Origin: Pseudomonas beijingensis
GTDB taxonomy: Bacteria; Pseudomonadota; Gammaproteobacteria; Pseudomonadales; Pseudomonadaceae
Assembly (NCBI RefSeq): GCF_030687295.1
Contig: NZ_CP117425.1
Coordinates: 248,001-312,000, forward strand
DNA: 64,000 nt
Direction of reading: 5' to 3'
Below the pieces are notes generated by a model that saw only the letters and a list, made by a program, of their open reading frames with translations, was not told the DNA's origin and searched no databases. The position numbers were made by a program, and so were the translations under genes. Below, in pieces: positions 1,504 through 50,638 of this stretch; the first letter of the stretch is position 1; each line of letters opens with the position of its first letter.

Positions 1504-3609
1504 TTACAGAGCGAGGGTAAGACTGATGGTGAAGTTGCGCGGATCGCCGGGGGTGACCCAGTAGTTGCTGTAGGCGCGCTCGTAGTATTTTTCGTCGAAG
1601 ACGTTGTTCAGGTTCAGGCCCACGGTGACGTCATCGCTGGCCTTGTAATGGGCCAGCAGATCCACGGTGTGGTAGGCCGGCAATTCGAAATCCTTGCCGG
1701 CTTCGCCCGAACGATCGCCGACGTACGTGAACGCCGCGCCGACATCCGAACCGCGCAGGTGCCCATCCTGGAATTCGTAGACCCCCAGCAGGCTGCCGCT
1801 GTGTTTGGCAACGCCGAGGATCCGGCTGCCGGTGGGATTGTCCCGGTCACCCTGGGTCACTTCGGCATCGATGTAGGCATAGGCGCCGATCACCCGCACG
1901 GCGTCGGTCACCTGCCCGGTCACCTGGAGGTCGATGCCCTGGCTGCGGGCCTTGCCGATGGCGCGGCTGAAGTCGGTCCCGGCGACCGGGCTCAGGACGT
2001 TTTCCTTCTCTATATGGAATGCCGCCAGGGTGGTGCTCAGGCGGTCGTCGAACCACTCGCTCTTGATCCCCACTTCATAGCCGACCCCTTCCTCGGGATC
2101 GAACGTCTTGCCGCTGGCATCCAGGCCATTGTTGGGCTTGAACGAGGTGGAAGCGTTGGCGAACAGGCCGACTTCGGGGGTCAGTTGATACAGCAGGCCG
2201 GCCCGTTGCGTCAGGGTGTCGTGGCGCTGGCGGCTGGTTTTACTGCGGGTGTGATCGTCGATGCTCTGCTCGAAATGCTCATAACGCACGCCAAGCATGC
2301 CCCGCAGCTTGTCGGTGAAAACGATCTGGTCCTGCAGGTTCAGCGCGCGGCTTTGCACATGTTCGAAGAAGTCGGTGCCGGTCCGAGCACCATTGGGTTT
2401 CGGCTGGCCGTAGATCGGCTGATAGATGTCGATGGGGTAGGTGCTGCCACCGATGGTGGTCACGCGCTCGTTCTTGCGGTAGTCCTCGTATTCGCTGCCG
2501 ATCAGCAGTTCGTGCTGCCACGGGCCGAGGTCGAACAAGCCGCGCAATTCCAGTTGGGTGATGCTGTCATGCCAATTGTTGTCGCGCTCGCGATAGCGGC
2601 GGTTCACCGTGTGGCCGTCGGGGTTCAGCGGACGCGCTTCGGAGGCGAAACCCCAGAGTTCCCCCTGCTTGTAGTGGCTGGCCAGGCGCAACTGCCAAGT
2701 GTCGTTGAGCTGATGTTCGAGGGCGGCCTGGAGCATGTTGTTGTGATTGTCGATGTCGCCGTCGTTGGGTTCGCCCAAAAAGGTCGAGCGGGAAACGCCG
2801 CTCCAGCGATTGTTCGGGGCGACGATGCCACGGTCGAACGTCGAGCTGTGGCGCACGATTTCGCTTTCCACCAGCAACCGCGTGTCGGGGTTCAATTGCC
2901 AGCTGATGGAAGGCGCGACGAAGACGCGCTTGCTGTCGACGTGATCGCGAAAGCTGTGGTTGTCCTCGACCGCCAGGTTGACCCGCGACAGCAACTGGCC
3001 TTCGGCGTCCAGGGGCGTGTTGACGTCCAATGCGGTGCGGTAGCGGTCCCAACTGCCGGCGCTGGTCTGCAGGGTGGTGAAGGCTTCAGGCTGGGGTTTC
3101 TTGGTGACAATGTTCACCGTACCGCCGGGATCGCCCCGGCCATACAGGCTGGCGGCCGGGCCCTTGAGCACCTCGATGCGTTCGATGTTCGCCGCGTCGG
3201 GCGTGCTCGGATAACCGCGATTGGCGCTGAAGCCGTCCTTGTAGAACTCCGACGTCGTAAAGCCGCGCACGCTGTACTCGTAAAGCGTCAGGCCACCGAA
3301 GTTGTTCTGCTTCGACACGCCGCCGGCATATTCCAATGCCCGCTCGACGCTGGTGCTGCCCAGGTCCTTGAGTACGCTGGCGGGAATTACACTGATCGAT
3401 TGCGGGATGTCGCGCAGGGCCGTGTCGGTTTTGGTTGCACTGGCAGAGCGGGTGGCACGATAGCCCGTCACGGGGCCAGTGGGCGATTCGTACTCGGATG
3501 TGACGCTGATGGCGTCCAGTTCCAGGGGCTGGATTTCTTCGGCGTAGGCGGGATCGCCGAGCAGGCCCAGGGCGAGACTGGCAACGGAAATCCGTTTTAG
3601 GGATGACAT
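1504..3609 (-). CDS. TonB-dependent siderophore-type outer membrane receptor
   Basis: About 701 residues from ATG 3609; an upstream TTG at 3624 would add five residues. Signal peptide to about residue 23, then directly a plug domain (SVIPASVLKDLG, VLKGPAASLYGRGDPGGTVN) and a 22-strand barrel with late motifs such as NLNNVFDEKYYE. There is no extra N-terminal signalling domain, so it should not drive an anti-sigma/ECF pair. It ends in Leu rather than the usual aromatic. First gene of a two-gene unit with the DUF4198 protein. Likely imports a ferric siderophore or other metal chelate using TonB energy; the ligand cannot be read from the sequence. Confidence 0.92.
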   Translation of the reverse strand: MSSLKRISVASLALGLLGDPAYAEEIQPLELDAISVTSEYESPTGPVTGYRATRSASATKTDTALRDIPQSISVIPASVLKDLGSTSVERALEYAGGVSKQNNFGGLTLYEYSVRGFTTSEFYKDGFSANRGYPSTPDAANIERIEVLKGPAASLYGRGDPGGTVNIVTKKPQPEAFTTLQTSAGSWDRYRTALDVNTPLDAEGQLLSRVNLAVEDNHSFRDHVDSKRVFVAPSISWQLNPDTRLLVESEIVRHSSTFDRGIVAPNNRWSGVSRSTFLGEPNDGDIDNHNNMLQAALEHQLNDTWQLRLASHYKQGELWGFASEARPLNPDGHTVNRRYRERDNNWHDSITQLELRGLFDLGPWQHELLIGSEYEDYRKNERVTTIGGSTYPIDIYQPIYGQPKPNGARTGTDFFEHVQSRALNLQDQIVFTDKLRGMLGVRYEHFEQSIDDHTRSKTSRQRHDTLTQRAGLLYQLTPEVGLFANASTSFKPNNGLDASGKTFDPEEGVGYEVGIKSEWFDDRLSTTLAAFHIEKENVLSPVAGTDFSRAIGKARSQGIDLQVTGQVTDAVRVIGAYAYIDAEVTQGDRDNPTGSRILGVAKHSGSLLGVYEFQDGHLRGSDVGAAFTYVGDRSGEAGKDFELPAYHTVDLLAHYKASDDVTVGLNLNNVFDEKYYERAYSNYWVTPGDPRNFTISLTLAL

Positions 3610-20060: not shown

Positions 20061-20399
20061 TCAGCGCCGTTGCAGTGGCGGTGCCTCGAACTTCACACCT
20101 GCCAGCCCATGGATCATCAGCGCACGGATATTGCCGTGATCACTGCCTTCGGGCGTGGCCAGCACCGAACGGTAATGTTCGCCAAATGCCAGCAGCGCTT
20201 CTTCATCGCTCAAGCCTTCGAGCAGCGCCAGGCCCAGGGTCTTGCACGAACCTTCGTTCTGCCCGGCGGCGTTTTCCACGCCGCCGTTGTTGAAGGCCTG
20301 GGGCTGGTAGTCGTAGCCGGCGGCGATAAAGGCCAGGGTGTCGGCGAAGGCATGTTCACCGCTCTTGAGGCGGGTACGCAGGGTAGCAAGATCAAGCAT
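20061..20399 (-). CDS. HopJ type III effector-like small protein
   Basis: 112 residues (MLDLATLRTRLKSGEHAFADTLAFI...). It matches the HopJ family name used in databases, but such proteins are chromosomal and widespread outside pathogens, so secretion is doubtful. It overlaps the upstream DUF1244 gene by 8 bases and is the last gene of the monapterin operon. No signal peptide or membrane span. Function unknown. GC and codon use look like neighbours. Confidence 0.82.
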   Translation of the reverse strand: MLDLATLRTRLKSGEHAFADTLAFIAAGYDYQPQAFNNGGVENAAGQNEGSCKTLGLALLEGLSDEEALLAFGEHYRSVLATPEGSDHGNIRALMIHGLAGVKFEAPPLQRR

Positions 20400-20688
20400 C
20401 GGGTTTTCCTTTGGCGAACGCCGCCTGTTGTTCGGCGCTGGCTTCTTTCTGGTATTGGGCTTTCCACTCGGCGTACGGCATGCCGTAGACCACTTCGCGG
20501 GCGTCGTCGAGGCTGACGTCCACCTGGCGTTCATCGGCGGCGGCCTTGTACCACTTGGACAGGCAGTTGCGGCAGAAGCCGGCGAGGTTCATCAGGTCGA
20601 TGTTCTGCACATCCTTGCGGCTGTCCAGGTGGGCAACCAGCCGACGGAAAGCGGCGGCTTCGAGTTCGAGGCGTTGTTGGTCGTTCAT
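20392..20688 (-). CDS. DUF1244 domain protein
   Basis: 98 residues with FCRNCLSKWYKAAADE, the Cys-x-x-Cys core of DUF1244, a small helical family of unknown function. Located between folX and the HopJ-like gene, in an order I recall from other pseudomonads. A 97-base gap to folX contains a short direct/inverted AAGCTTGAAG-like repeat. Confidence 0.88.
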   Translation of the reverse strand: MNDQQRLELEAAAFRRLVAHLDSRKDVQNIDLMNLAGFCRNCLSKWYKAAADERQVDVSLDDAREVVYGMPYAEWKAQYQKEASAEQQAAFAKGKPDA

Positions 20689-20785
20689 GGTGATCTCTGC
20701 GAGACAGCTTCAAGTTGTAAGTTTCAAGCTGCAAGTGGGTATGCGGTCTTCAGGCTTGAAGCTTACAGCTTGAAGCTTTTAGCGG

Positions 20786-21167
20786 CTACGCAGTAGCCCG
20801 GCTTGCCGCGAGGGTAATCGACACCGACTCGGCAAATCGCAAGGCGTGGGGCTTGTCGACTTCGACTTCGGCGTACAGCACCGACTCGTTGGCCATGACC
20901 AGGTCGAGCAATTCCTGGGTCAGGCGTTCGAGCAGGGCGAAGCGGTTGCTTTCCACGTGGGCGATGATCGCCTTGGTAATGGTGCGGTAGTTAAGCGCAT
21001 GGTCGATGTCGTTGTCGCGCACCGCCTCCTGGGCGGCATAGAGGATGGTCAGGTTGATCAACACATCCTGCTTGTTGAGGATTTCATCCTCGTTGATGCC
21101 AATGAAGGTGCGCAGGCGCAGGTCCTTTGACCTTGATGCGTGCCATGGCTGGCTGAAGTTGTGGCAT
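20786..21167 (-). pseudogene. folX: Dihydroneopterin triphosphate 2'-epimerase, frameshifted
   Basis: ATG 21167 abuts the folE stop (TAAATG). The N-terminus reads [14 protein letters not shown] and then the frame breaks: the next bases AAAGGACCTG should be AAAGACCTG ([12 protein letters not shown]). Removing one base at about 21124-21125 restores an intact FolX (about 126 residues) through [16 protein letters not shown] and the conserved KPHALRFAESVSI end. FolX converts 7,8-dihydroneopterin triphosphate to dihydromonapterin triphosphate. A sequencing error is as likely as a real mutation. Confidence 0.88.
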
Positions 21168-21729
21168 TTACTTGCTCCGTCGAATCAATTGCAGGAACTC
21201 CTGGCGCGTGGTGCTGGAGTCGCGAAAGGCGCCGAGCATCACCGAGGTGTTCATGGTCGAGTTCTGTTTTTCGACACCGCGCATCATCATGCACATGTGC
21301 TGGGCCTCGATCACCACCGCTACGCCAGCGGCCTGGGTGACCTGCTGCACCGCGTCGGCGATTTGCCGGGTCAGGTTCTCCTGGATTTGCAGGCGGCGGG
21401 CGAACATGTCCACCAGCCGGGCGATCTTCGACAGCCCCCAGGACCTTGCCGGTAGGAATATAAGCCACATGGGCCTTGCCGATGAAGGGCAACAGGTGAT
21501 GTTCGCAGAGCGAATAGAGCTCGATGTCGGCGACGATCACCATTTCATCGCTGTCAGAGGCGAACAGCGCGCCATTGACGATCTGCTCGACGCTTTGTTC
21601 ATAGCCATGGCAAAGGTACTGCATGGCCTTGGCGGCACGTACCGGGGTATCGAGCAGACCCTCGCGCTCGGGATTTTCCCCCAGGCCGATGAGGATCTCG
21701 CGGTAGTTCTGGGGCAGGGATAGCGTCAT
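21168..21729 (-). pseudogene. folE: GTP cyclohydrolase I, frameshifted
   Basis: Start [36 protein letters not shown] is textbook FolE. The zinc-site [26 protein letters not shown] is intact, then five Gs at about 21437-21441 replace four and the frame shifts. With one G removed it continues [20 protein letters not shown] to the usual end [12 protein letters not shown], about 186 residues. FolE makes 7,8-dihydroneopterin triphosphate from GTP, the first step for folX and folM. A homopolymer extension is a typical sequencing fault. Confidence 0.9.
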
Positions 21730-37856: not shown

Positions 37857-39161
37857 ATGAACCTCGATTCCACCGCGTCGGACCTGGCTTACCAATCAGG
37901 CTTGGGCAACGAATTTGCCAGCGAAGCCTTGCCCGGCGCCTTGCCCGTCGGCCAGAACTCCCCACAGAAAGCCCCGTACGGTCTCTATGCCGAGTTGTTC
38001 TCTGGCACGGCGTTCACCATGGCCCGCAGCGAAGCGCGGCGTACCTGGCTGTATCGCATCCGGCCGTCGGCCAATCACCCGGCCTTCACCAAGCTCGAAC
38101 GGCAATTGGCGGGCGGTCCATTGGGCGAAGTCACGCCCAATCGCCTGCGCTGGAACCCGCTGGACATTCCCGCCGAGCCCACCGATTTCATCGACGGGCT
38201 GGTGTGCATGGCGGCCAATGCCGGCGCGGACAAACCGGCCGGCGTCAGCCTTTATCACTACCGGGCCAACCGCGCCATGGAGCGAGTGTTTTTCAATGCC
38301 GACGGTGAATGGCTGATCGTGCCGCAACTGGGACGGCTGCGGATCGCCACCGAGCTGGGCGTGCTGGAACTGGCGCCGCTGGAAATCGCCGTGTTGCCCC
38401 GGGGCCTGAAGTTTCGCGTTGAACTGCTCGACCCGCAGGCCCGTGGTTACCTCGCCGAAAACCATGGCGCGCCGCTGCGCTTGCCGGACCTAGGGCCCAT
38501 CGGCAGCAACGGCCTGGCGAACCCACGGGACTTCCTGACGCCGGTCGCCCATTACGAGAACCTCGCGCAACCGACCACCCTGGTGCAGAAATTCCTCGGT
38601 GAGTTGTGGGGGTGCGAGCTGGATCATTCGCCCCTCGACGTGGTGGCCTGGCACGGCAACAACGTGCCGTACAAATATGACCTGCGCCGCTTCAACACGA
38701 TTGGCACGGTCAGCTTCGATCACCCGGACCCGTCGATTTTCACCGTGCTGACCTCGCCCACCAGCGTCCACGGCCTGGCCAACCTCGATTTCGTGATCTT
38801 TCCGCCACGCTGGATGGTGGCGGAAAACACCTTCCGTCCGCCGTGGTTCCATCGCAACCTGATGAACGAATTCATGGGCCTGATCCAAGGCGCCTACGAT
38901 GCCAAGGCCGAAGGTTTCCTGCCGGGCGGTGCGTCGCTGCACAGTTGCATGAGCGCCCATGGCCCGGACGGCGAGACCTGTACCAAGGCGATCAACGCTG
39001 ACCTTCAGCCGGCGAAAATCGACAACACCATGGCGTTCATGTTCGAGACCAGCCAGGTCTTGCGCCCAAGCCGTTTCGCCCTGGACTGCCCGCAACTGCA
39101 AACCGACTACGATGCTTGTTGGGCCTCGCTGCCTGTCACGTTCGACCCGACCCGGAGATAA
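37857..39161 (+). CDS. hmgA: Homogentisate 1,2-dioxygenase
   Basis: 434 residues. Opens [19 protein letters not shown], typical of the family. The iron-site region [29 protein letters not shown] carries the His and Glu ligands; [12 protein letters not shown] supplies the further His. Ring-opens homogentisate to maleylacetoacetate with oxygen and Fe(II), central to tyrosine and phenylalanine breakdown. First gene of hmgA-fahA-maiA; fahA starts 2 bases after its stop. Good Shine-Dalgarno CCAGGAGG at 37846-37853. Confidence 0.97.
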
Positions 39162-39163
39162 CC

Positions 39164-40468
39164 ATGACTCAACTTTCCCCTGCCCGTAGCTGGGTCGCCA
39201 GCGCCAACGGCCATGCCGACTTCCCGTTGCAGAACCTGCCATTGGGTGTCTTCAGCGTCGATGGCGGTGCCTTGCGCAGCGGCGTGGCGATTGGCGAGCG
39301 GATTTTCGATCTGCAGGCGGCATTGCACGCGGGCTTGTTCGATGGCGCGGCGCAACAAGCCGTCGAAGCCATGGCCGGCGGCCAGTTGAATGGTTTTTTC
39401 GACCTGGGCCGCAACGCCCGGGTGGCCCTGCGTGAACGGCTGCTGGAACTGTTGCGCGAAGACAGTCCGCTGCGCGGCAAGGTCGAAGCGCTGGAGGCGA
39501 AGCTGCTGCTCGTCGCCGCTGACTGCCAAATGCACCTGCCGGCCAGGATCAACGACTACACCGACTTCTACGTCGGTATCGAGCACGCGCAGAATGTCGG
39601 CAAGCTGTTTCGCCCCGACAATCCATTGCTGCCCAACTACAAATACGTGCCCATCGGTTACCACGGTCGCGCCTCGACCATTCGCCCGTCCGGCACCGAC
39701 GTGCGCCGGCCCAAGGGCCAGACCTTGCCGGCCGGCCAGACCGAACCGACCTTCGGCCCGTGTGCGCGGCTGGACTATGAGCTGGAGCTGGGCATCTGGA
39801 TCGGCAAAGGCAACGCACTGGGCGAACCGATTCCCATCGGCGATGCCGCCGAGCACATTGGCGGGTTCTGCCTGCTCAACGACTGGTCGGCCCGGGATAT
39901 CCAGGCCTGGGAATACCAGCCCCTGGGGCCGTTTCTGTCGAAGAGTTTCCTCACCAGCATTTCGCCGTGGGTGGTGACGGCTGAAGCCCTGGAACCGTTC
40001 CGCCGCCCGCAACCGGCGCGCCCGGAAGGCGATCCGCAACCGCTGCCGTATCTGCTGGACACCCGTGACCAGGCCGGCGGTGCTTTCGACATCGAGCTGG
40101 AAGTCCTGCTGCTGACCGAGGCCATGGTCGAGCAGAACCTGCCGGCCCAGCGCCTGACGTTGAGCAACACCCAGTACATGTACTGGACCGTGGCGCAAAT
40201 GGTCGCGCACCACAGCGTCAATGGCTGCCAGTTGCAGGCCGGCGACCTGTTTGGTTCGGGCACCTTGTCGGGGCCTGAAAACCATCAGTTCGGCAGCCTG
40301 TTGGAAATCACCGAAGGCGGTAAAAAACCGATCGAACTGGCGTCTGGCGAAGTGCGCCGATTCCTCGAGGACGGTGACGAAATCATCTTGCGGGCCCGCT
40401 GCCGCCGCGAGGGTTTCGCCTCCATCGGCTTCGGCGAGTGTCGGGGCAAGATCCTGCCGGCGCGTTGA
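39164..40468 (+). CDS. fahA: Fumarylacetoacetase
   Basis: 434 residues from ATG 39164. The N-terminal SH3-like domain (to about 120) and C-terminal catalytic domain with YTDFYVGIEHAQNVGKLFRPDNPLLPNYKYVPIGYHGRASTI and the metal-binding DYELELGIWIGKGN (Asp, Glu). Splits fumarylacetoacetate into fumarate and acetoacetate. Length and motifs are standard. It is the second gene; maiA starts 10 bases after its stop. Confidence 0.97.
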   Translation: MTQLSPARSWVASANGHADFPLQNLPLGVFSVDGGALRSGVAIGERIFDLQAALHAGLFDGAAQQAVEAMAGGQLNGFFDLGRNARVALRERLLELLREDSPLRGKVEALEAKLLLVAADCQMHLPARINDYTDFYVGIEHAQNVGKLFRPDNPLLPNYKYVPIGYHGRASTIRPSGTDVRRPKGQTLPAGQTEPTFGPCARLDYELELGIWIGKGNALGEPIPIGDAAEHIGGFCLLNDWSARDIQAWEYQPLGPFLSKSFLTSISPWVVTAEALEPFRRPQPARPEGDPQPLPYLLDTRDQAGGAFDIELEVLLLTEAMVEQNLPAQRLTLSNTQYMYWTVAQMVAHHSVNGCQLQAGDLFGSGTLSGPENHQFGSLLEITEGGKKPIELASGEVRRFLEDGDEIILRARCRREGFASIGFGECRGKILPAR

Positions 40469-40478
40469 GGGGCAGTGC

Positions 40479-41114
40479 ATGGAACTCTATACGTACTACC
40501 GCTCCACCTCGTCCTATCGGGTGCGTATTGCGCTGGCGCTCAAGGGCCTGGATTACCAGGCCTTGCCTGTCAACCTGATCGCTGCGCCTGCGGGCGAACA
40601 TCGCCAGCCGGCCTACCTGGCGATCAACCCCCAGGGCCGGGTGCCGGCGCTGCGTACCGATGAAGGGGCGTTGCTGGTGCAATCGCCGGCCATCATCGAA
40701 TACCTGGAGGAGCGTTATCCCCAGGTACCGCTGCTCAGCGCCGACCTGGCAGTGCGCGCCCACGAGCGTGGTGTCGCTGCGCTGATCGGTTGCGACATTC
40801 ATCCCCTGCACAACGTCAGCGTGCTCAACAAGCTGCGGCAGTGGGGCCACGATGAAGCGCAGGTGACGGAGTGGATCGGGCATTGGATCAGCCAGGGCTT
40901 GGCGGCGGTGGAGCAGTTGATTGGCGACGACGGCTATTGCTTCGGCGCGCTACCGGGGCTGGCGGATGTGTACCTGATCCCGCAGTTGTACGCGGCCGAG
41001 CGGTTCAATGTTTCCTTGCAGGAATACCCACGGATCCGGCGCGTGGCGGCATTGGTGGCAGGGCATCCGGCGTTCCAACAGGCGCATCCGGCGAAGCAGC
41101 CGGATACCCCTTGA
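40479..41114 (+). CDS. maiA: Maleylacetoacetate isomerase (zeta-class GST)
   Basis: 211 residues. Thioredoxin-like N-domain with the zeta signature YYRSTSSYRVRIALALKG and GSH-site VQSPAIIEYLEERYP; helical C-domain ending RIRRVAALVAGHPAFQQAHP. Isomerises maleylacetoacetate to fumarylacetoacetate using glutathione as catalyst. The pathway order here (dioxygenase, hydrolase, isomerase) is as in P. putida hmgABC. ATG 40479 with GAGGGGCAG upstream. Confidence 0.95.
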   Translation: MELYTYYRSTSSYRVRIALALKGLDYQALPVNLIAAPAGEHRQPAYLAINPQGRVPALRTDEGALLVQSPAIIEYLEERYPQVPLLSADLAVRAHERGVAALIGCDIHPLHNVSVLNKLRQWGHDEAQVTEWIGHWISQGLAAVEQLIGDDGYCFGALPGLADVYLIPQLYAAERFNVSLQEYPRIRRVAALVAGHPAFQQAHPAKQPDTP

Positions 41115-41320: not shown

Positions 41321-42125
41321 TCAATGCACAACCGAATTCGGCGGCAAATGCCCCAGCCGCTCCGTCAGCCGGATTCGCTGGATCGGATCTTCACTGAGCA
41401 TCAGCGCATGTTCCAGGTCGAAGCGTTCGGCGTTGGGGCAATCGAGTCGCTGATACAGGCTGGCGCGCGCCAGGTAATCGGCGGCGCTGGCGTTGCCCAG
41501 TTCCAGCACCCGTTCGGCGTCTATCAGTGCCGCGATGTAATCGTCATTCGCCAGATGCAGTTGGCGCAGGTTGCGCGACAGGCGCTGCAGGATCTGCGTC
41601 GGCTCGGCGTTGACCAGGTGCTCCGCCTTGAGCGACATGTTCGCGCCGTATTGGCGTTGCAGCAGTTCCCGGCAGTCATTGGGGTACAGCCGGCGCCCAC
41701 CGCACGGATCGAGCAGGTGATCGGCGCCGGGCACCTTCAACAGGAAATGCCCGGGAAAATTGACACCGACCATCGGAATTTCCAGGCCCCGGGCCAATTC
41801 CAGGGCAATCAGTCCAAGGGCCAGGGGCTGCCCGCGTTTTGCGGGCCAGGACTTTATCCAGTAGCGCCGCTCGCGGTCGCAGGGGCGTGAAGTCGTCCTG
41901 GGCGAAGCCCAGGTCATTGAGCCGTCGCAACAGGGGCTGGCCCAGTTCGCTGACAGGCAGCATCGGCAGGTCATGGCTGACCTGCTGTTGCAGCTCCTTG
42001 AAATCCTTCAGCAAGGCCGGGACGTCGACGTCGCGATCATGTTCGGCAGCGATCCACAACGCCGCTTCGAACAGCGCCGGCGGTGAGCGGTGCAGACAGT
42101 CAAAAAAGGCTTGGCGCGGTTTCAT
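41321..42125 (-). pseudogene. SirB1-family transglutaminase-like/TPR protein, frameshifted
   Basis: ATG 42125 (MKPRQAFFDCLHRSPPALFEAALWIAAEHDRDVDVP). Near 41836-41839 four As (minus strand) stand where three would keep frame: CGCAAAACGCGGG for CGCAAACGCGGG. After the shift the known family motifs continue: RGQPLALGLIALELARGLEIPMVGVNFPGHFLLKV, then tetratricopeptide-like helices to the C-terminus. With one base removed it is 267 residues, a normal length. Function unknown; the transglutaminase core lacks an obvious catalytic Cys. Sequencing error is probable. Confidence 0.85.
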
Positions 42126-42312
42126 CAAACTCTCCGGGCTATGCTCCCGTTTTAGCCCTGCCATGGATTTTCGTCCAGTCTCGGACATGGGCTGTGACAG
42201 GTTATGCCGAAAAAGACTGACCACCCTGGCGACTTATTCCGGCGTGCTCCAGCAATTTTCGACTGCACGCCTATACTGGCGAAACAAACAAAAGTGATTC
42301 GGGAGCCTTACG

Positions 42313-43332
42313 ATGTTTGCTCTCATGCAAAGCTCCCGCCTTGAATCGCTGCACCTAAGCGTAGACCCGACGACCGGGTTGAAGGCGGTGATTGCCATTC
42401 ATTGCAGCCGTCCCGGGCCCGCCCTGGGAGGCTGTCGTTATCTTGCCTACCCCGACGACGAAAGTGCCGTGGCTGACGCCGTGCGCCTGGCCCAAGGCAT
42501 GAGCTACAAGGCGGCGCTGGCCGGTTTGCCTGTGGGCGGTGGGGTGGCGGTGATCATGCGACCGGCCCATGTCGAGAGTCGGGCGGCGCTGTTCGAAGCC
42601 TTTGGCCGTTGCATTGAGCAATTGGACGGGCGCTACATCACCGCCATCGACAGCGGCACGTCGGTGGCCGACATGGATTGCATCGCTCAGCAGACCCGCC
42701 ACGTCACCAGCACCACGGCCTCGGGAGATCCCGCGCCCCACGCGGCAATGGGCGTCTTCGCCGGCATCCGTGCCACCGCCATGGCCCGCCTGGGGAGCGA
42801 TAACCTCGAAAGCCTGCGGGTGGCGATCCAGGGCTTGGGCAATGTCGGTTATGCCCTGGCCGAACAACTGCACGCGGCGGGTGCCGAATTGCTGGTCAGC
42901 GATATCGATCCGGGTAAGGTGCAACTGGCCATGGAGCAATTGGGCGCCCATCCGATCGCCAACGACGCGCTACTCAGTACCCCCTGCGACATCCTTGCCC
43001 CCTGCGGCCTGGGCGGGGTACTCAACAGCCACAGCGTGGCGCAACTGCGCTGCTCGGCCGTTGCCGGCTCGGCCCACAATCAGTTGAGCAACCTGCAAGT
43101 GGCCGACCAGTTGGAGAGGCGCGGGATTCTCTATGCGCCGGACTATGTGATCAACTCCGGCGGGCTGATCTACGTCGCCCTCAAGCATCGCGGCGAAGAA
43201 CTGTCGACGATCACCGCGCATTTGTCGAAGATCGGTGCGCGGCTTACGGAAGTCTTCGCCCACGCCCAGGCGGAAAAACGCTCACCGGCCCGGGTGGCCG
43301 ATGAGCTGGCGGAGCGCCTGCTGTACCGCTGA
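42313..43332 (+). CDS. Leu/Glu/Phe/Val dehydrogenase with altered catalytic site
   Basis: 339 residues. N-terminal substrate domain with GPALGGCR and GMSYKAALAGLPVGGGVAVI, then a Rossmann domain with VAIQGLGNVGYALAEQL (about 170-186). Family members use two lysines; the first is Lys66 (MSYK), but the catalytic GGGK position is Val78 (GTG). Asp113 (TAIDSGT) is kept. The family oxidatively deaminates a branched-chain amino acid with NAD. With Val in place of Lys the enzyme may be slow, inactive or changed in reaction. P. aeruginosa ldh (PA3418) is the nearest I can name. Divergent from the sirB1-like gene. Confidence 0.85.
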   Translation: MFALMQSSRLESLHLSVDPTTGLKAVIAIHCSRPGPALGGCRYLAYPDDESAVADAVRLAQGMSYKAALAGLPVGGGVAVIMRPAHVESRAALFEAFGRCIEQLDGRYITAIDSGTSVADMDCIAQQTRHVTSTTASGDPAPHAAMGVFAGIRATAMARLGSDNLESLRVAIQGLGNVGYALAEQLHAAGAELLVSDIDPGKVQLAMEQLGAHPIANDALLSTPCDILAPCGLGGVLNSHSVAQLRCSAVAGSAHNQLSNLQVADQLERRGILYAPDYVINSGGLIYVALKHRGEELSTITAHLSKIGARLTEVFAHAQAEKRSPARVADELAERLLYR

Positions 43333-43373
43333 AAATCAAAAGGAAGTAATGGGTAGCAGTGAAGCTGCCTATC

Positions 43374-43463
43374 TGTGGGAGCAAGGCTTGCCCGCGATGC
43401 AGGTGCCGCGGCTGTTCAGGCTGACCGAGTCATCGTTCATCGCGAGCAAGCTTTGCTCCCACA
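43374..43463. repeat. REP pair, family II with one family I-like arm
   Basis: Left arm GTGGGAGCAAGGCTTGCCCG and right arm CGAGCAAGCTTTGCTCCCAC, so the two arms have drifted towards different families. Confidence 0.85.
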
Positions 43464-43470
43464 GCTGCCA

Positions 43471-44711
43471 TTACCTCAACAGGTACACCGGAAAGCACTC
43501 GCACAAATGCATCACCCGGCGCCGGGTGTTATCCAGGCGTGCGGCGTTGTCCGGCTGTTCCAGCAGGTCGGCGATCAGGTTCGCCACTTCGGCACATTCC
43601 GCTTCGCCAAAGCCACGTGTGGTCAGCGCTGGTGTGCCGATGCGAATGCCGCTGGTGATCGCCGGTTTCTGCGGGTCATTGGGGATCGCGTTTTTGTTCA
43701 ACGTGATATGGGCACTTTCCAGCAGCGCTTCGGCGTCTTTGCCGGTGATATTTCATCGAACGCAGGTCGAGCAGGAACATGTGGCAGTCGGTACCGCCGG
43801 ACACCACCCGCAAGCCGCGCCGGGTCAGGATGTCGGCCATGACCCGGGCGTTGTCGATCACCCGCTGCTGGTAATGCTTGAACCCGTCGCCCAAGGCTTC
43901 GTTGAAGGCCACGGCCTTGGCGGCGATGACATGCATCAGCGGGCCGCCCTGGTACACCGGGAAAATCGTCTTGTCGAGCAGGGCGGCGTATTGCGCCTTG
44001 GCCAGGATCAAGCCGCCGCGGGGGCCGCGCAGGGGTCTTGTGGGTGGTGGAGGTGATGAAGTCGGCGATGCCCACCGGCGAGGGGTATACGCCGGCAGCG
44101 ATCAACCCGGCGTAGTGCGCCATGTCCACCATCAGGTAGGCGCCGATTTCATCGCAGACCTTGCGAAAGCGTTGGAAGTCGATGGTCCGCGAATAGGCCG
44201 AGGCCCCGGCGATGATCATCTTCGGCCGGTGTTCCCGGGCCAGGGCTTCCATTTCTTCGTAGTCGAGGGTTTCGGTTTCTGCGTCCAGGCCATAGGAAAA
44301 GGCCCGGTAGATTTTACCGGAAAAATTTACCGAGGCGCCGTGGGTCAAGTGGCCGCCGTGGGCCAGGGACATGCCCAGAATCGTGTCACCGGGTTCCAGT
44401 ACCGCCAGGAAAACCGCCTGATTGGCCTGGGAGCCGGAGTGCGGCTGCACGTTGACGTATTCGCAGTTGAACAGTTTGCGTGCGCGTTCGATGGCCAGGT
44501 TCTCGATTTCATCGACGACCTTGCAGCCGCCGTAGTAACGCTTGCCCGGATAGCCTTCGGCGTACTTGTTGGTGAGCACGGAGCCCTGGGCCTGGAGCAC
44601 CTCTTCGCTGACGTAGTTTTCCGACGCGATCAACTCCAGGTGAGTTTCCTGGCGGTTGCGCTCGCGGTCGATCAGGCGGGCAATGGTGGGGTCGAAATTT
44701 TGCAGGCTCAT
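43471..44711 (-). pseudogene. glyA: Serine hydroxymethyltransferase, two frameshifts
   Basis: ATG 44711 with AAGGAATC upstream. The N-terminal two-thirds is normal ([37 protein letters not shown]-lysine region STTHKT). Near 44032-44035 a G is added, shifting the frame right after the Schiff-base lysine; the other frame continues [12 protein letters not shown]. Near 43750 an A is added and the third frame continues [27 protein letters not shown] to the end. Two bases removed give 412 residues. Last gene of the MocR-controlled operon, 11 bases after the threonine-synthase-like stop. Either a broken copy or sequencing faults. Confidence 0.88.
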
Positions 44712-44722
44712 GGTGTGATTCC

Positions 44723-45976
44723 TTAGATAAGCGCTTCGGCCGGTGACGCAGTCACGTGGTGCGGCAACACCCGTGGCTGGCTTTTGGACGAATCGGATAG
44801 AAAAATGGAGGTGTCTTTCAAACCGCTGCCGGTGATCAGGATCACGGCGGTTTGCGGGGTGTCGGGGTGTGTTTGCGCGTACTGGAGCAGGCCGGCGAAG
44901 GCGCTGGCGGCGCCGGCTTCCGGAAACACGCCGGTGCTGGCGGCCAATCGGGAGGCGGCGGCGACAATGCTCGGGTCGCTGACGCAAATGAACTCGCCGT
45001 CGCTGGCGGTCACCGCACGCATGGCTTTGAGGCGATCACGCGGCAACGCCACGTTGATGCTGCTGGCCAGGCTGGTAGGTGGCACGCGTTCGGTTTGCTG
45101 CATCGAGCGATCGTAGCGCCAGGCGCGGTACATGAAGTTGCTGTGTTCGGCCTGCACGCCGATCAGGCGTGGGATGCGTTCGATCCAGCCCAATTGCAGC
45201 AAGTCGAAAAAGCCTTTGTAGACCGAACCCAGGATGCAGCCGTTGCCGACGGGCACGAACACCAGGTCCGGCACTTGCCAGTTGAGCTGCTCGCACATTT
45301 CGAAGGCGACGGTCTTCTTGCCTTCGCTCATGTACGAGTTGATTCCGGTGGTGCGGTTGTACCAGCCGTGTTTTTCGCAGGCGTTGAGGCATTGTTCGAA
45401 GGCTTCGTCGTATTGTCCGTCGACCAGCACGATCTCGGCGCCGTAGCCCTGCATCTGCGCGAGCTTTTCGCGGGGCGCGCTCCTGGGCAGATAGATGACG
45501 TTGTGCAAGCCCAGGCTGGCGCTCATCCCGGCCAGTGCCGAAGCGGCATTGCCGGTGCTGGCCACCGCCACGGTGCGGGCACCGGATTGCATGGCGTGGG
45601 CCACGGCCAGGGCGCTGGCGCGATCCTTCAATGACCCGGTCGGTTGCCGCGACTCGTCTTTTACGAAGACTTTGATCCGGGCACCTTTGCCGAGCAGTTC
45701 CGGGCGCGAGTACAGCGGCGTGTTGCCCACCAGTAATGGTGGAATGAATTGCGTCGAGCTCAACGGCATCAAGCGGTCATAGCGCCACATGCCACGGGCA
45801 TGGTTATGGGCCAGGCTGTCCCGGGACCATTCGCGCTTGAGCGTCGGGTAATCGTAAAGCGCGTCCAGTGCACCATCGACTTTACAATGAGGGCAGTAGT
45901 AGCTGACCTCATGGGGCTGGTAGCTTCGATCGCAAACCAGGCACTGCAATACATACTCTCTGTACGAATTTTTCAT
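44723..45976 (-). CDS. Threonine-synthase-like PLP enzyme with N-terminal zinc ribbon
   Basis: 417 residues. Cys12-x-x-Cys15 and Cys28-x-x-Cys31 form a rubredoxin-type knuckle ([16 protein letters not shown]). The type II PLP fold follows: Schiff-base lysine in [13 protein letters not shown] (about 117), phosphate loop ASTGNAAS, and late [11 protein letters not shown] true threonine synthase (with hom, in central metabolism) is not expected here; the operon suggests a catabolic lyase or dehydratase on a hydroxy amino acid. ATG 45976 has AGAGGGTG upstream. Confidence 0.85.
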
Positions 45977-46070
45977 GGTCACCCTCTGAAAGTACGCTGT
46001 GCTGGTGCTTTCCTTGCCAACGTCGGTCCGGCTCACCGGACCGACGGGCACTCCGCTGACAGAAGGTGTT

Positions 46071-46502
46071 TCAGATCACCATGATGGCGTCGATGGCGAC
46101 CAGGGTATGGCGTGCCAGCGCGCTGGCGCCGGCGGTGGTGCGGGCCGGGTAGGGCTTGGTGAAGTACTCCTCCATGACGCGATTGAGGGTCGGGAACTCA
46201 CTCAGGTCGGTAATGAACGCCGTGACCTTGACCACGTTCGCCAGGGTGCCGCCTGCCGCTTCGGCCATTTGCACCAGGTTGTCGAGGGTCTGGCGCAGTT
46301 GGCCTTCAAAATCCTTGGCCAGCACTTCGTTGTTCAGCGCCGAGACCGGGGTCTGTGCCGACAGGTAGATGGTTTGCCCGTGGCTGACCTTGATGCCCTG
46401 GGAATAGGTGCCCAGCGGCAGTGGCGCCTTGTCGGTGAAAATGACGTTCTCTTCGCCCAGGAAAGGTTTGGCGGCCGGCTGGATTTGAGCGGTGGTTTGC
46501 AT
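46071..46502 (-). CDS. RidA family imine/enamine deaminase
   Basis: 143 residues, with the RidA trimer motifs GTYSQGIKVSHGQTIYLSAQTP and the substrate-binding Arg near 121 in PARTTAGAS. RidA hydrolyses reactive 2-imino or enamino acids to oxo acids. Its operon partners are a PLP lyase/dehydratase-like enzyme and an amino-acid oxidase, both makers of such imines, so its job here is clear in outline. The 94-base gap to the threonine-synthase-like gene has no terminator. Confidence 0.9.
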   Translation of the reverse strand: MQTTAQIQPAAKPFLGEENVIFTDKAPLPLGTYSQGIKVSHGQTIYLSAQTPVSALNNEVLAKDFEGQLRQTLDNLVQMAEAAGGTLANVVKVTAFITDLSEFPTLNRVMEEYFTKPYPARTTAGASALARHTLVAIDAIMVI

Positions 46503-46530
46503 GGTGACGTTCCTTGTTAAGTGGATGGGG

Positions 46531-47703
46531 TTAGTGCAAATCGGCAACCTGCTTGACAGCCAGGCTGGAAAATTCCTCGTCGCGGCAACGGGCCGGGGAA
46601 AAGTGCTGGTAGTTGAGTTGCAGCGCCGCCAGGTCGGCCGGCATGGCGATGCCCAGCGCCGCATGACTGCACAGGCGTGCAATGGCGGGTGCGGCCTGGA
46701 TGCCGTAGCCACCCAGGGCCGCAAGCCAGATAAAGCTCTCTTGCTGCGGGTCCTGGCCGAGCACCGGCGAGCGGTCGGCGACGAAGGTGCGCAGACCGGC
46801 CCATTTATTGATGATCGAGCGGGGGCGCAGGCGCGTAGTGTTTTGCAGGCGATCCATGGTGATGGCCAGGTCAAGCTCTTCCGGCAGCGCGTCGCAGGGC
46901 AACGACGGGCTTTCATCGCAGGGGGAGACGATCAGTCGCCCAGCTTCAGGCTTGATGAAAATGTCCTCGTCCACCGTGCCCAGGTAGGGCGTGTGGTGCA
47001 CGTCGCACTGTGGATCGACCGCCAGCACGGTGCGCCGCAACGGTCGGACACCGACTTTGGGCACGCCACAGCGCTCGGCAAACTCATCGGTCCAGGCACC
47101 GGCGGCGTTGACCACAATGGCGCTTTGCAGTTGCTGGCCGTCCCGGGTGTGCAAGCGCCAGTACCCGTCGCGACGCTCGCCACGCAGTACTTCGGTCTCG
47201 CGCTTGACCACGCCACCACGGGCACGCAGGCCACTCAGGTAAGCGCTATGAATGCCATGCACATCCAGGTCGAAGGCGCTGGGCTCGTAGATCCCGGCGC
47301 TCCAGGCGCCTTCGGCGAGGTAGGGGACCAGTTCCTGTACTTGCTTGTCATCAAGCAACTCGGCCGTGGGCACTTGCTCCAGCACGGCGTTGAAACGTGC
47401 TTTGAGTTTGTCCACCCGTGCCGCCTGGGCCACGATCAGTGCGCCCCGCGGCGCCCATAGCGGATGCTCGGCCAAGCCCTCGGGCGGGTTCTCGAAAAAG
47501 CGTCGGGACGCACAGGTCAGCGAGCGGATCTGCTGGTTGCCGTAGCTTTCCATCGAGATCGCGGCCGAACGCCCCGTGGTGTGGTAGGCCAGTTGCTGTT
47601 CCTGTTCGAGCAGGCAGACGCTGCCATGGGTCGCCAGCTCATAAGCGGCTGAGACGCCGGCGATGCCGCCACCGACCACGATGAAGTCGTAACGAGCGAT
47701 CAT
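46531..47703 (-). CDS. FAD-dependent amino-acid oxidoreductase (DadA/glycine oxidase type)
   Basis: 390 residues. ADP-binding VVGGGIAGVSAAYELA (about 9-24), GRSAAI after the first strand, the second FAD contact near VVNAAGAWTDEFAERCGV, and the C-terminal WAGLRTFVADRSPVLGQ / GYGIQAAPAIARLC motifs. It probably oxidises a secondary or D-amino acid to an imino acid. Start overlaps the benE stop by 4 bases (ATGA). No signal peptide; peripheral membrane location possible as for DadA. Confidence 0.88.
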   Translation of the reverse strand: MIARYDFIVVGGGIAGVSAAYELATHGSVCLLEQEQQLAYHTTGRSAAISMESYGNQQIRSLTCASRRFFENPPEGLAEHPLWAPRGALIVAQAARVDKLKARFNAVLEQVPTAELLDDKQVQELVPYLAEGAWSAGIYEPSAFDLDVHGIHSAYLSGLRARGGVVKRETEVLRGERRDGYWRLHTRDGQQLQSAIVVNAAGAWTDEFAERCGVPKVGVRPLRRTVLAVDPQCDVHHTPYLGTVDEDIFIKPEAGRLIVSPCDESPSLPCDALPEELDLAITMDRLQNTTRLRPRSIINKWAGLRTFVADRSPVLGQDPQQESFIWLAALGGYGIQAAPAIARLCSHAALGIAMPADLAALQLNYQHFSPARCRDEEFSSLAVKQVADLH

Positions 47704-48905
47704 GGTCGGCTGCCCTCGGCGATAGCGGCGGCTTTGCTTTCCCGGGTGTAGGTCAGCACGAAGTGCGCCACGAGACCAAAAATCAGCCCCCAGAACGCGG
47801 CGGCCAGGCCGAGGAAACTCATGCCCGAGGCCGTCACCAGGAAGGTGATCAGTGCTGCTTCCCGCTGCTTCTCATCCGCCATGGCGCCGGTCAGCCCGGC
47901 ACTGATCGCGCCAAACAAGGCGAGGCCGGCGAGGGAAGCGATCAATTCTTTTGGCAGGGCGGAAAACACCGAGGCCAGGGTCGCGCCAAAGGTGCCCATC
48001 AGAATGTAGAACACCCCGCAGGCTATCCCGGCCATGTAGCGTTTGTCGCGGTCCTCGTGGGCTTCGCGACCAGTGCAGATCGCTGCGGTAATGGCCGCCA
48101 GGTTAAAACCGTGGGAACCGAACGGGGCCATCAGGACCGAGCCAATTGCGGTGACTGAAATGATCGAGCGCGCTGGCGTGTTGTAGCCCGAGGTGCGCAA
48201 CACGGCCATGCCTGGCACGTACTGGCCGGTCAGTGTCACCAGCGCCAGTGGCAGGCCGATGTTGATGATTGCGTGCCAGTTCCATTCAGGGGCGACGAAG
48301 ACCGGGTGGGCCACGGCGATGGTGATCGAGCTGCTGTTGAGCTCACCGAACGAGGCGGCCACCGCGCAACCGACGATCAGCACCGACAGGATCGCGTAGC
48401 GTGGCGAAAAGCGCTTGAAGGCCAGGTACGCCGCGATCATCGCCAGCACCAATGCCGGCTGCAGCTTGATCGACGTGAACAGCTCGGCACCAAAGCGGAA
48501 CAGGATGCCGGCGAGCATGGCGGCGGCAATGGCCTTGGGCAGGCGGCTCATCAGCTTGTCGAACGCCCCGGACAAACCGACCAGGGCGATGATCACCGAT
48601 GCCACTACATAGGCACCAATGGCTTGGGGCAGGGTCACGGTAGGCAGCATCGACACCAGCAACGCCGCCCCCGGTGTCGACCACGCGGTGATGACGGGGG
48701 CACGCAGGCGCCAGCTCAGGAGCAGGCCGGTAATCCCACTGCCGATGGAAATGGCCCAGATCCACGAAGACACCACGTCATCGGGCAGGTGCGCTTCCTT
48801 GGCTGCCTGGAACACGATGATGAGCGGGCCGGCGTAGGAAATGATCACGGCGATGAAGCCCGCGATGATCGCTGACAGGGATAGATCCTTTCTGAGTGTG
48901 TCCAT
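47700..48905 (-). CDS. Benzoate/H+ symporter-family transporter (BenE)
   Basis: 401 residues with about 12 hydrophobic segments. BenE family by sequence (ILISYAGPLIIVFQAAKEAHLPDDVVSSWIWAISIGSGITGLLLS opening). The family name comes from benzoate uptake, but no benzoate genes are near; as first gene of an amino-acid operon it more likely imports the operon's substrate. Start ATG 48905. Two copies of a 13-base repeat (ATTGAGTCGATTG type) lie 40-95 bases upstream. Confidence 0.85.
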   Translation of the reverse strand: MDTLRKDLSLSAIIAGFIAVIISYAGPLIIVFQAAKEAHLPDDVVSSWIWAISIGSGITGLLLSWRLRAPVITAWSTPGAALLVSMLPTVTLPQAIGAYVVASVIIALVGLSGAFDKLMSRLPKAIAAAMLAGILFRFGAELFTSIKLQPALVLAMIAAYLAFKRFSPRYAILSVLIVGCAVAASFGELNSSSITIAVAHPVFVAPEWNWHAIINIGLPLALVTLTGQYVPGMAVLRTSGYNTPARSIISVTAIGSVLMAPFGSHGFNLAAITAAICTGREAHEDRDKRYMAGIACGVFYILMGTFGATLASVFSALPKELIASLAGLALFGAISAGLTGAMADEKQREAALITFLVTASGMSFLGLAAAFWGLIFGLVAHFVLTYTRESKAAAIAEGSRP

Positions 48906-49246
48906 GATGTCTCGACTTGGCGCGGCAGGAGCGCGCAGTGGATGATTGAGTCGATTGCTTCGATTCGGAATCAGTGTATTTGAATGGATTGAGTTGATTC
49001 AATAGGTGGCGGGATTGTTACGAGATATTTTTCTGCTATTACGGAGCATTTTTAGGATATTTGATGGTTAATATATTGATTTTTATAATTATTATTTGTT
49101 GTAAGATTTCTTGAATCCACATTGATAAACAATTCAAAAATCGTATCAATCGACTCAATGAATCGTATGTGTCGAATTATTAGTTGCCTAACCTCCATGT
49201 GATATGCTCGGATATTCATCATTTCTACGATGGGCAGTGATCATTC
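48906..49246. promoter_or_regulatory. Divergent AT-rich regulatory region with three candidate MocR operators
   Basis: Between benE and the MocR gene. ATTGAGTCGATTG at 48945-48957, ATTGAGTTGATTC at 48988-49000 (43 bases apart, about four turns) and the inverse CAATCGACTCAAT at 49147-49159. The stretch 49020-49140 is strikingly AT-rich for this genome (runs such as TTTTTATAATTATTATTTG). The arrangement of two direct and one inverted copies fits a looping MocR dimer. Confidence 0.75.
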
Positions 49247-50638
49247 ATGTGGGTTCCCCAGCTAAGCGAGTTCAGCCAGCCGATGTATTTGTCGATTGCC
49301 GATGCGTTGGCGCGCGATATCAACAACGGCGTGCTGAACGAGGGCGATCGCTTGCCGACCTTGCGGGAGCTGGCCACCACCTTGAATGTCACGCCAGGCA
49401 CCATCAGCCGTGCCTATAGCGAAGCCCATCGGCGTCGGTTGGTGCAGGGAGAAGTGGGGCGTGGCACTTATGTGCTCAACCAGAAGCAGCTGGAACTGCC
49501 GGCCAGCAACAGCGCCGCCGCGCCGCTGAACCTGGGGCAATCCGAACTGCTCGACCTTTCGATCATCAAGCCCTACAGCGAGACCCTGGAGTACTGGTTG
49601 CGCGGCGCGCTGGTGGGCATGGCGAAAAGCACCGACTTCGCGCGCGCGCTGGATTACGCGCCGGACGGCGGTCACCCGGCCCATCGTGAGGCGGGGGCGC
49701 AATGGTTGCGTCATTCATTGCCCGACGCGCAATGGCAGCAAGTGGTGATTACCGCCGGGGCCCAGCACGGCTTGATGGTTGCGATGAGCGCCCTGACCAA
49801 CGCCGGTGACCTGGTGCTTTGCGAGGCGCTCTGCTACCCCGGTATCATTTCCCTGGCTCACGGCCTTGAGCGTCGCCTGCGCGGCGTGCCGATGGATGAC
49901 GAAGGCATCATCCCTGAAGCCTTGCGCGAACTGTGCCTGCGAGAGAAGCCGGCGATGCTGGTGTGCGTGGCGACCTGCCAGAACCCGACGGCGGCGATCA
50001 TGTCGCAGAAACGTCGGGCCCAGATTGCCGCGCTGGCCGAGGAATTCGACTTCATCATCCTGGACGATGACATCTATGGCTTCCTGGCTACCGATCCGTC
50101 GATCAAGCCGTTGTCGGCCTTTGCGCCGGATCGTTCGGTGTACCTGACCAGCCTGTCGAAGTCAGTCATGCCGGCGCTTCGCATCGGTTATATCTACAGT
50201 CCACCGAAATTGCTGTCACGCCTGACTTCGATGGTCCGCAGCAGTGTCTGGATGCCGTCGCCGTTGACTGCGCAACTGGCCAGCAATGTGATTACCGAAG
50301 GCCTGGACAAGAAACTGATCCGCATCCAGCGCAACGAGGCGGCGGGGCGACAAGCGATCGCCCGGGAAATTTTCGCCAATTTCGAGCTCAAGACCCAGCC
50401 GTATTCCTATCACGTCTGGTTGACGCTGCCCGAGCCATGGACCAGCGACGAATTCACCATGCTCGCCCGGGCCAACGGCGTATTGGTGCTCAGCGGCACC
50501 CAGTTCCAGGCCGAGCGTTCAGGGACCACCCGGTGCGTGCGGTTGGTATTGATGTCGCCCACCAGCCAGGACGAACTGCGCTTCGCCCTGACCAAGCTGG
50601 CGAGCCTGATCGATTCGGACCCACGTCGTTATTATTGA
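49247..50638 (+). CDS. MocR-type GntR/aminotransferase regulator
   Basis: 463 residues. N-terminal GntR winged helix (about 12-78, LRELATTLNVTPGTISRAYSEAHRRRLVQGEVGRGTYV), then a fold-type I aminotransferase domain with TAGAQHGLMVAMS, ILDDDIYGF (Asp to PLP) and SLSKSVMPALRIGY (Schiff-base lysine about 307). MocR proteins bind PLP and an amino acid, and use it to switch genes. Divergent from the benE operon, which it most likely controls. ATG 49247; preceding sequence includes a weak Shine-Dalgarno. Confidence 0.92.
   Translation: MWVPQLSEFSQPMYLSIADALARDINNGVLNEGDRLPTLRELATTLNVTPGTISRAYSEAHRRRLVQGEVGRGTYVLNQKQLELPASNSAAAPLNLGQSELLDLSIIKPYSETLEYWLRGALVGMAKSTDFARALDYAPDGGHPAHREAGAQWLRHSLPDAQWQQVVITAGAQHGLMVAMSALTNAGDLVLCEALCYPGIISLAHGLERRLRGVPMDDEGIIPEALRELCLREKPAMLVCVATCQNPTAAIMSQKRRAQIAALAEEFDFIILDDDIYGFLATDPSIKPLSAFAPDRSVYLTSLSKSVMPALRIGYIYSPPKLLSRLTSMVRSSVWMPSPLTAQLASNVITEGLDKKLIRIQRNEAAGRQAIAREIFANFELKTQPYSYHVWLTLPEPWTSDEFTMLARANGVLVLSGTQFQAERSGTTRCVRLVLMSPTSQDELRFALTKLASLIDSDPRRYY

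Follow-up and report, generated by a model that had tools for sequence, protein, structure and literature searches.

What is the function of a gene cassette in which one divergent MocR-type regulator stands before an importer of the BenE family, a flavin adenine dinucleotide (FAD)-dependent amino-acid enzyme, a RidA deaminase, a threonine-synthase-like pyridoxal 5'-phosphate (PLP) enzyme, and a serine hydroxymethyltransferase (SHMT; GlyA)? We addressed this question for a cassette found in a 64-kb stretch of DNA (the window, bases 248001 to 312000 of a single 6.45 Mb contig), whose nearest named relatives in our genome collection are Pseudomonas. We propose, with a probability of about 0.4, that it is a substrate-induced catabolic cassette through which a small uncharged beta-hydroxy amino acid is imported and broken down, with RidA clearing the imine or enamine released by two of the enzymes. 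Gene calls and families were taken from open reading frame (ORF), Pfam, and NCBIfam scans of the window, and these confirmed the gene order, strands, and families given in a preliminary description of the locus.

We looked for the cassette in other genomes with a search of the collection for proteins closely related to the PLP enzyme. This yielded 12 named loci, all from Pseudomonas (including P. thivervalensis and P. brassicacearum), and the gene order recurred in every one of them, two being damaged: benE lies in two frames in P. cyclaminis (L059), and in P. zanjanensis (L051) a deletion leaves only the first half of the FAD gene, fused to the ridA end. Five of 119 genomes of the genus, our own included, contain the PLP enzyme, and the same five hold the full-length FAD enzyme at an identity of at least 85%; in another genome (G114), the FAD gene is truncated and only a remnant is left of the PLP gene. 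A search of 398 genomes of the phylum with the PLP enzyme (E ≤ 1e-90) returned the own genome only, as did a search of 369 genomes of the class with a Piscinibacter/Albitalea homologue as the query.

A search for MocR in 398 genomes of the genus gave 82 matches in 79 genomes. Outside our own genome there were 81 such loci, from which we fetched 60, namely, 57 of the 60 with a MocR identity of at least 65% (leaving out G084, G662, and G707) and 3 of the 21 with an identity of 62% or less. We found benE divergent from mocR in all 57 of the former and in none of the latter three, and MocR-BenE is the conserved core unit. The 57 loci fall into three architectures, with a full cassette in 15, BenE and GlyA in 7, and BenE without any complete cassette enzyme in 35, such that the block of FAD, RidA, and PLP genes is complete in 15 loci and has none of its three genes complete in 42. 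One full locus (L129) has benE in two frames, and G084, which stands outside these counts, also contains a full cassette; since some strains are represented both among the 57 and among the named loci (e.g., L117 and L049), the two counts are not additive. The preliminary description had proposed a compact, locally controlled cassette in which imines are generated and then cleaned up by RidA. The first point is supported, and the second fits, as the three genes of the block are retained or lost jointly next to GlyA. It had also tied the idea of one pathway to the recurrence of the set in related genomes, which we observed at 12/12 named and 15/57 MocR-BenE loci, a recurrence too frequent for the order to be due to chance. 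The five genes do not form an indivisible pathway, given the 35 loci without cassette enzymes and the 7 without the middle three genes.

Remnants of the block lie in the gap between benE and glyA in six of the seven BenE-GlyA loci, only L123 being clean. In five loci, these are the 5' end of the FAD gene and the 3' end of the PLP gene (merely ∼37 and 24 bases in L125 and L132), and in L130 they are pieces of the PLP gene only. The end points of the deletions differ among L121, L124, L125/L132, L130, and L134, with L051 as a further case, and the block has therefore been deleted several times. Among five BenE-only loci that we checked, L128 keeps the start of the FAD gene and L135, L142, and L144 gave chance-level matches only; in the enzyme-free locus L131, the start of glyA lies directly behind benE (∼3231 to 3263, with benE on the + strand) as a trace of a lost gene. 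The MocR-BenE tree requires 10 changes of architecture, compared to a mean of 20.7 for shuffled architectures (none of 200 as low), and in the full cassettes, the distances of the FAD enzyme, RidA, PLP enzyme, and GlyA track those of MocR-BenE (r = 0.86 to 0.93 without L161/L162; 0/2000 permutations as high). Because of the tree, the distance correlation, and the deletion remnants, loss from an older full cassette appears a better account than repeated assembly; the deepest BenE-only clades may equally well never have had the enzymes.

Other leads were pursued and dropped. The genes behind BenE in the enzyme-free loci, identified by reading without a family scan, comprise a porin with a pyrroloquinoline quinone-dependent dehydrogenase, a ribosome hibernation factor, Etf, PhnN, and fumarase, and as they vary from clade to clade, they give no functional hint. 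A Paraburkholderia origin was rejected upon finding that L081 and L082, which are among the nearest plasmid-borne SHMT loci, are without other cassette genes, and the same holds for L083, a DauA-like locus of Azospirillum.

Regulators of the MocR family bind PLP and sense an amino acid through its external aldimine. We aligned the mocR/benE intergenic region of the window with those of 32 of the 57 loci (33 in all) and found common ATTGA-TCGATT boxes and a palindrome, ATTGANTYGATTCAAT in the window. With at most one mismatch, this palindrome has a single site in the 6.45 Mb genome, at 48988 to 49003 (control, 0), and none in 380 kb of control DNA, and it is present in 55 of the 57 fetched 10-kb MocR-BenE loci independently of their enzyme content, L169 and L170 being those in which it is missing. 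Promoter-like hexamers are located at 49061 to 49095 on the + strand and at 49203 to 49176 on the − strand. MocR would act at this one operator region and thereby control benE together with its downstream genes. The spacing from benE to glyA (−4, 28, 94, and 11 bases), with a 4-base overlap between the benE stop and the FAD-gene ATG, is compatible with one transcript, as are the Shine-Dalgarno-like runs that precede the refined starts of RidA (ATG at 46502) and of the PLP enzyme (ATG at 45976). The features of the locus are collected in Table 1.

Table 1. Features of the MocR-BenE cassette, with positions in the window.
Feature	Position	Strand	Basis
MocR-type regulator (GntR + aminotransferase-like), EhuR-like, divergent	49247..50638	+	Pfam GntR + Aminotran_1_2
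Divergent promoter region common to mocR and benE, further ATTGA-TCGATT boxes	48906..49246		Alignment of 33 intergenic regions
Palindromic operator-like site ATTGANTYGATTCAAT, mocR/benE intergenic	48988..49003		Genome and locus site searches
BenE-family importer, 401 aa	47700..48905	-	PF03594, 516.9 bits
DauA-like FAD D-amino-acid dehydrogenase or oxidase, 390 aa	46531..47703	-	PDB DauA matches, active-site residues
RidA-family imine/enamine deaminase, 143 aa	46071..46502	-	TIGR00004
Strong intercistronic hairpin, ridA/PLP gene	46021..46046	-	Predicted folds, 16/16 sequences
Fold-type II PLP enzyme with zinc ribbon, annotated as threonine synthase	44723..45976	-	PF00291
glyA-like serine hydroxymethyltransferase, two frame shifts	43471..44711	-	PF00464, three pieces

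We then analyzed the sequences of the cassette enzymes. What had been described as a FAD amino-acid oxidase is indeed a FAD amino-acid enzyme and could be narrowed to a DauA-like one, its closest solved relatives being structures of DauA from Pseudomonas aeruginosa (PDB, E = 3.4e-80 and 1.4e-79; next match, 5.8e-19), a protein whose gene neighbors presumably differ from those of the cassette. As reported in the sections of PMC11193025 on active-site residues, R222 and R305 of DauA bind the carboxylate, Y53 and E246 form a gate, E87 binds the cation, H48 serves in a proton relay, and the guanidinium group of D-arginine is contacted by both E87 and E246. The alignment of our enzyme with DauA in the PDB, through which we mapped these positions, showed that the two arginines and the gate are kept as R224, R305, Y54, and E246 in 15/15 full cassettes; L121, whose copy is truncated, deviates at position 246, close to where that copy ends. 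The enzyme thus resembles the DauA-Rid system of P. aeruginosa in its family, its Arg pair, its Tyr-Glu gate, and, in our proposal, an imine cleared by a Rid protein (PMC5619798 and PMC11193025). It differs in that the guanidinium-binding E87 and the proton-relay H48 are replaced by A88 and I49 (16/16 rows, the 15 full cassettes and truncated L121) and Y249 is replaced by Phe (15/15 full cassettes). The loss of E87 makes a cationic substrate less probable, and the residues point away from D-arginine to a D-amino acid that is small or apolar. Since the substitution Y249F turns DauA oxygen-reactive, again according to PMC11193025, the Phe at this position suggests that the cassette enzyme may be a true oxidase.

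The PLP enzyme matches a solved threonine synthase (PDB, E = 1.8e-48). Its score is just over the cut-off for threonine synthase model TIGR00260 (169.2 versus 167.1 bits) and under that for PRK08197 (259.9 versus 303 bits), and two proteins encoded elsewhere in the genome match the thrC family better. Five of five solved threonine synthases in our alignment contain a Thr after the SxGN/SxGD motif and the Arg of N-x-x-R-x-EG, two residues which we take to bind the substrate phosphate. The cassette enzyme shares fold type II and overall similarity with bacterial ThrC (PRK08197-like) but has Ala169 and Met241 at these positions (442-amino-acid [aa] frame; 15/15 cassettes), while the Schiff-base lysine, which we assign by the family motif as we know it, is presumably kept. 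Of the best 120 of 3558 homologues, all 120 have Ala at the first position; at the second, 117 have Met, the other 3 have Leu or Thr, and none has Arg. Because it is without the Thr and Arg common to the five solved threonine synthases, the cassette enzyme is probably a beta-eliminating lyase and not a threonine synthase.

RidA scored 112.1 bits on TIGR00004 (cut-off, 106.25; a 137-aa piece was scanned) and keeps the equivalent of Arg105 in 15/15 cassettes, as R115 in the 137-aa numbering; the equivalence was read from the alignment, with the RidA numbering presumed. In the relevant text of PMC5619798, Arg-105 is a determinant of deaminase activity, and some Rid proteins accelerate the DauA reaction by removing its imine. 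Between ridA and the PLP gene, a hairpin appears in the predicted fold of 16/16 sequences (the window and the 15 full cassettes), with compensatory changes in L119 and L133 (judged by eye); the hairpin sequence is different in L161/L162. No T-run follows it, and no Rfam family matched it at the gathering threshold; it may set an unequal dosage of the flanking genes.

Our proposal for the cassette is as follows. BenE would take up the amino acid, the likeliest fuel being a small uncharged beta-hydroxy alpha-amino acid from among the stereoisomers of threonine, allo-threonine, and serine. The D-form would be oxidized to an imine by the DauA-like flavoenzyme, the PLP enzyme would remove the beta-hydroxyl from the other form to yield an enamine or imine, and RidA would hydrolyze the products of both to a 2-keto acid and ammonia. 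GlyA would cleave the L-(allo) form into glycine and an aldehyde or would hand a one-carbon unit to folate, and BenE and GlyA would be able to function alone. More tentatively, the cassette may constitute an undescribed route, in which a DauA-like oxidase, its pocket apolar and possibly reactive with oxygen, and a threonine-synthase look-alike blind to phosphate would act on the two stereoisomers with one dedicated RidA, MocR sensing the imported amino acid.

Several points weigh against a catabolic cassette of this kind. We infer the substrate, its stereochemistry, the direction of the route, and the enzyme that supplies RidA, and amino-acid transport by BenE is deduced from the neighboring genes, in a family that is named for benzoate. 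The RidA residue equivalent to Glu120, a position which we take to be conserved in archetypal RidA, is A130 in 15/15 cassettes. The block is not strictly all-or-none, L051 having an intact PLP gene and glyA with the FAD enzyme and RidA lost. The 35 MocR-BenE loci without a complete cassette enzyme have downstream genes that depend on the clade, and the signal may concern the importer alone. In the window, glyA is broken by single-base frame shifts near 44030 and 43750. Finally, the DauA product iminoarginine was acted upon in vitro by Rid2 and Rid3 and not by RidA/Rid1, as far as the text of PMC5619798 covers it.

Regarding the broken glyA, the single SHMT gene of the preliminary description is right as to the family but is not one open frame in this assembly. 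Our search for SHMT genes in the own genome recovered it in three pieces, with PF00464 over the cut-off, along with two other SHMT genes that are open. The gene is intact, with a 412-aa frame, in 12/12 named relatives and forms one clean frame in 22/22 loci that hold it in the wider MocR-BenE set. We compared the window with three relatives at 92 to 94% identity (56 to 59 ORFs with a match in each, some of them antisense). The SirB1/transglutaminase-like gene at 41324 to 42224 is frame-shifted near 41837 in comparison with all three, in which it is intact. The gene at 37965 to 40480 is split near 39160 relative to G669 and G519 (840 aa in G519), and relative to G656 the split is near 40470, in an ORF that is called differently. 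The stretch from 20338 to 21720 falls into two or three frames relative to the relatives' ORFs, with overlapping ORF calls that leave the true gene unsure. Given the intact glyA of the relatives and the splits in further window genes, an assembly error seems the simplest account of the frame shifts, and decay of the cassette is not favored.

Part of the system has been anticipated. Suvorova and Rodionov (2016) predicted a functional link between BenE and GlyA in MocR regulons and listed threonine synthase and RidA among the MocR-regulated families (PMC5320631, main text). Their regulons resemble the cassette in MocR control, in the pairing of BenE with GlyA, and in the threonine synthase and RidA families, and they differ in being co-occurrence predictions without a function. 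The five-gene set, the DauA identity and its pocket, the loss of the threonine-synthase residues, the three architectures with their remnants, and the single operator are absent from the sections of that article that we read. Our literature searches found no paper with the exact five-gene set, and in the portions of PMC6449761 and PMC9484086 that mention it, BenE figures in aromatic metabolism only. The earlier statement that no described pathway with this exact set was known agrees with our searches as regards the set, but the BenE-GlyA link in MocR regulons had already been published.

If the undescribed route is real, the locus bears on the cargo of MocR-controlled BenE transporters, on whether RidA has dedicated partners or a general guard role, and on the role of the many "threonine synthases" without threonine-synthase residues; to judge from the best 120 of 3558 homologues, all without the Thr and Arg, the look-alike would represent a large misannotated family. 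The natural deletion series (full, GlyA only, and none), several members of which lie at the same chromosomal site, offers ready-made strains for asking which enzyme the import serves.

We weighed four other explanations. An unlikely one is that the locus serves vitamin B6, with BenE as a pyridoxine importer, a PLP-sensing MocR, and enzymes that are users of PLP or guards against damage to PLP enzymes. A BenE-family protein in PdxR regulons is a putative pyridoxine transporter, and RidA and GlyA are found in MocR regulons (main text of PMC5320631); a vitamin uptake pair would also suit the 35/57 MocR-BenE loci without cassette enzymes. However, the regulator reached only 199 bits on the model for PdxR, the B6 MocR (cut-off, 320), compared to 449.6 bits on its best NCBIfam match, EhuR, the ectoine MocR, which is itself below the cut-off of 480. 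We recognized no B6 gene among the neighboring ORFs that we read (those of the enzyme-free loci without a family scan), and a role in B6 leaves the D-amino-acid dehydrogenase unexplained.

It is similarly improbable that the cassette is a protective module, in which GlyA would be a spare for SHMT inactivated by 2-aminoacrylate, RidA would quench the latter, and the other two enzymes would clear D-amino acids and serine. Loss of RidA reportedly inactivates SHMT in Salmonella, and GlyA is retained upon loss of the block in 7/57 loci, but GlyA is thereby kept exactly where the proposed source of damage is gone, and such a module requires no importer, yet BenE is its most constant part.

We also give little credence to the use of an aromatic beta-hydroxy amino acid such as phenylserine, imported by BenE and cleaved by GlyA or the PLP enzyme. 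BenE scores well over the curated cut-off of TIGR00843 (474.1 versus 203.4 bits), a family name that refers to benzoate, and the pocket of the flavoenzyme is apolar at three positions. Nevertheless, no cassette gene resembles an aromatic-ring enzyme in Pfam or NCBIfam, and the second BenE of the genome is only 50% identical, so that a transfer of substrate from other BenE proteins is weak. This second gene lies at G000:C1:3026764-3027888, and the 18 kb around it contained no other cassette genes.

The last alternative invokes an alpha,alpha-disubstituted amino acid such as alpha-methylserine, which an SHMT homologue would convert into D-alanine or D-serine, with the dehydrogenase, RidA, and the PLP lyase then leading to pyruvate. 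A parallel is cluster II of the TRIS pathway (PMC10848231), which on the Shinella plasmid p2_Teo12 comprises SHMT, folD, purU, D-amino-acid dehydrogenase, and D-serine ammonia-lyase genes, i.e., the same kinds of activity, with an SHMT-type enzyme beside a D-amino-acid dehydrogenase and a PLP lyase. It differs in the mSHMT type of its SHMT, the presence of folD and purU (both absent from the cassette), the lack of an annotated RidA, its D-serine ammonia-lyase, and a LysR-type regulator gene upstream, and the dehydrogenase and PLP enzyme of the cassette are only remotely related to their Teo12 counterparts. The cassette SHMT does have an unusual FPVYQGG/FPMYQGG loop where the other SHMT proteins aligned have FPGxQGG or FPGxQGS. 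Still, it is 50 to 52% identical to the Teo12 enzyme, compared to 65 to 67% for two Paraburkholderia SHMT proteins and 58 to 62% for the host's own two GlyA proteins, and at the Teo12-specific sites (GNRFHGG, LAAGGH, TTTKT, and GTSAATTRG; Teo12 being the one mSHMT sequence compared), the SHMT proteins of L049, L055, and L060 are ordinary, an Asp in L161/L162 being the one exception among the ordinary-like cassette SHMT proteins. By its sequence, the SHMT thus looks ordinary despite the resemblance of the gene clusters, and we consider an alpha-methylserine pathway the least probable of the four.

Some minor observations concern glyA and its surroundings. The intact 412-aa SHMT of L049 has 4mso, presumably a Burkholderia enzyme, as its closest match in the PDB (E = 4.2e-179). 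In L161/L162, the most distant full cassettes, the Asp replaces the His of SLAHGG, an unusual active-site change. A convergent Glu/Leu/Phe/Val-dehydrogenase-like gene at 42313 to 43332 (best NCBIfam match, ScyB, 286.7 bits; cut-off, 600) stays in place in several loci without the cassette. Just past glyA, an inverted pair of TGTGGGAGCAA-type repeats occupies 43373 to 43462, and these repeats resemble what we take to be the REP elements common in Pseudomonas.

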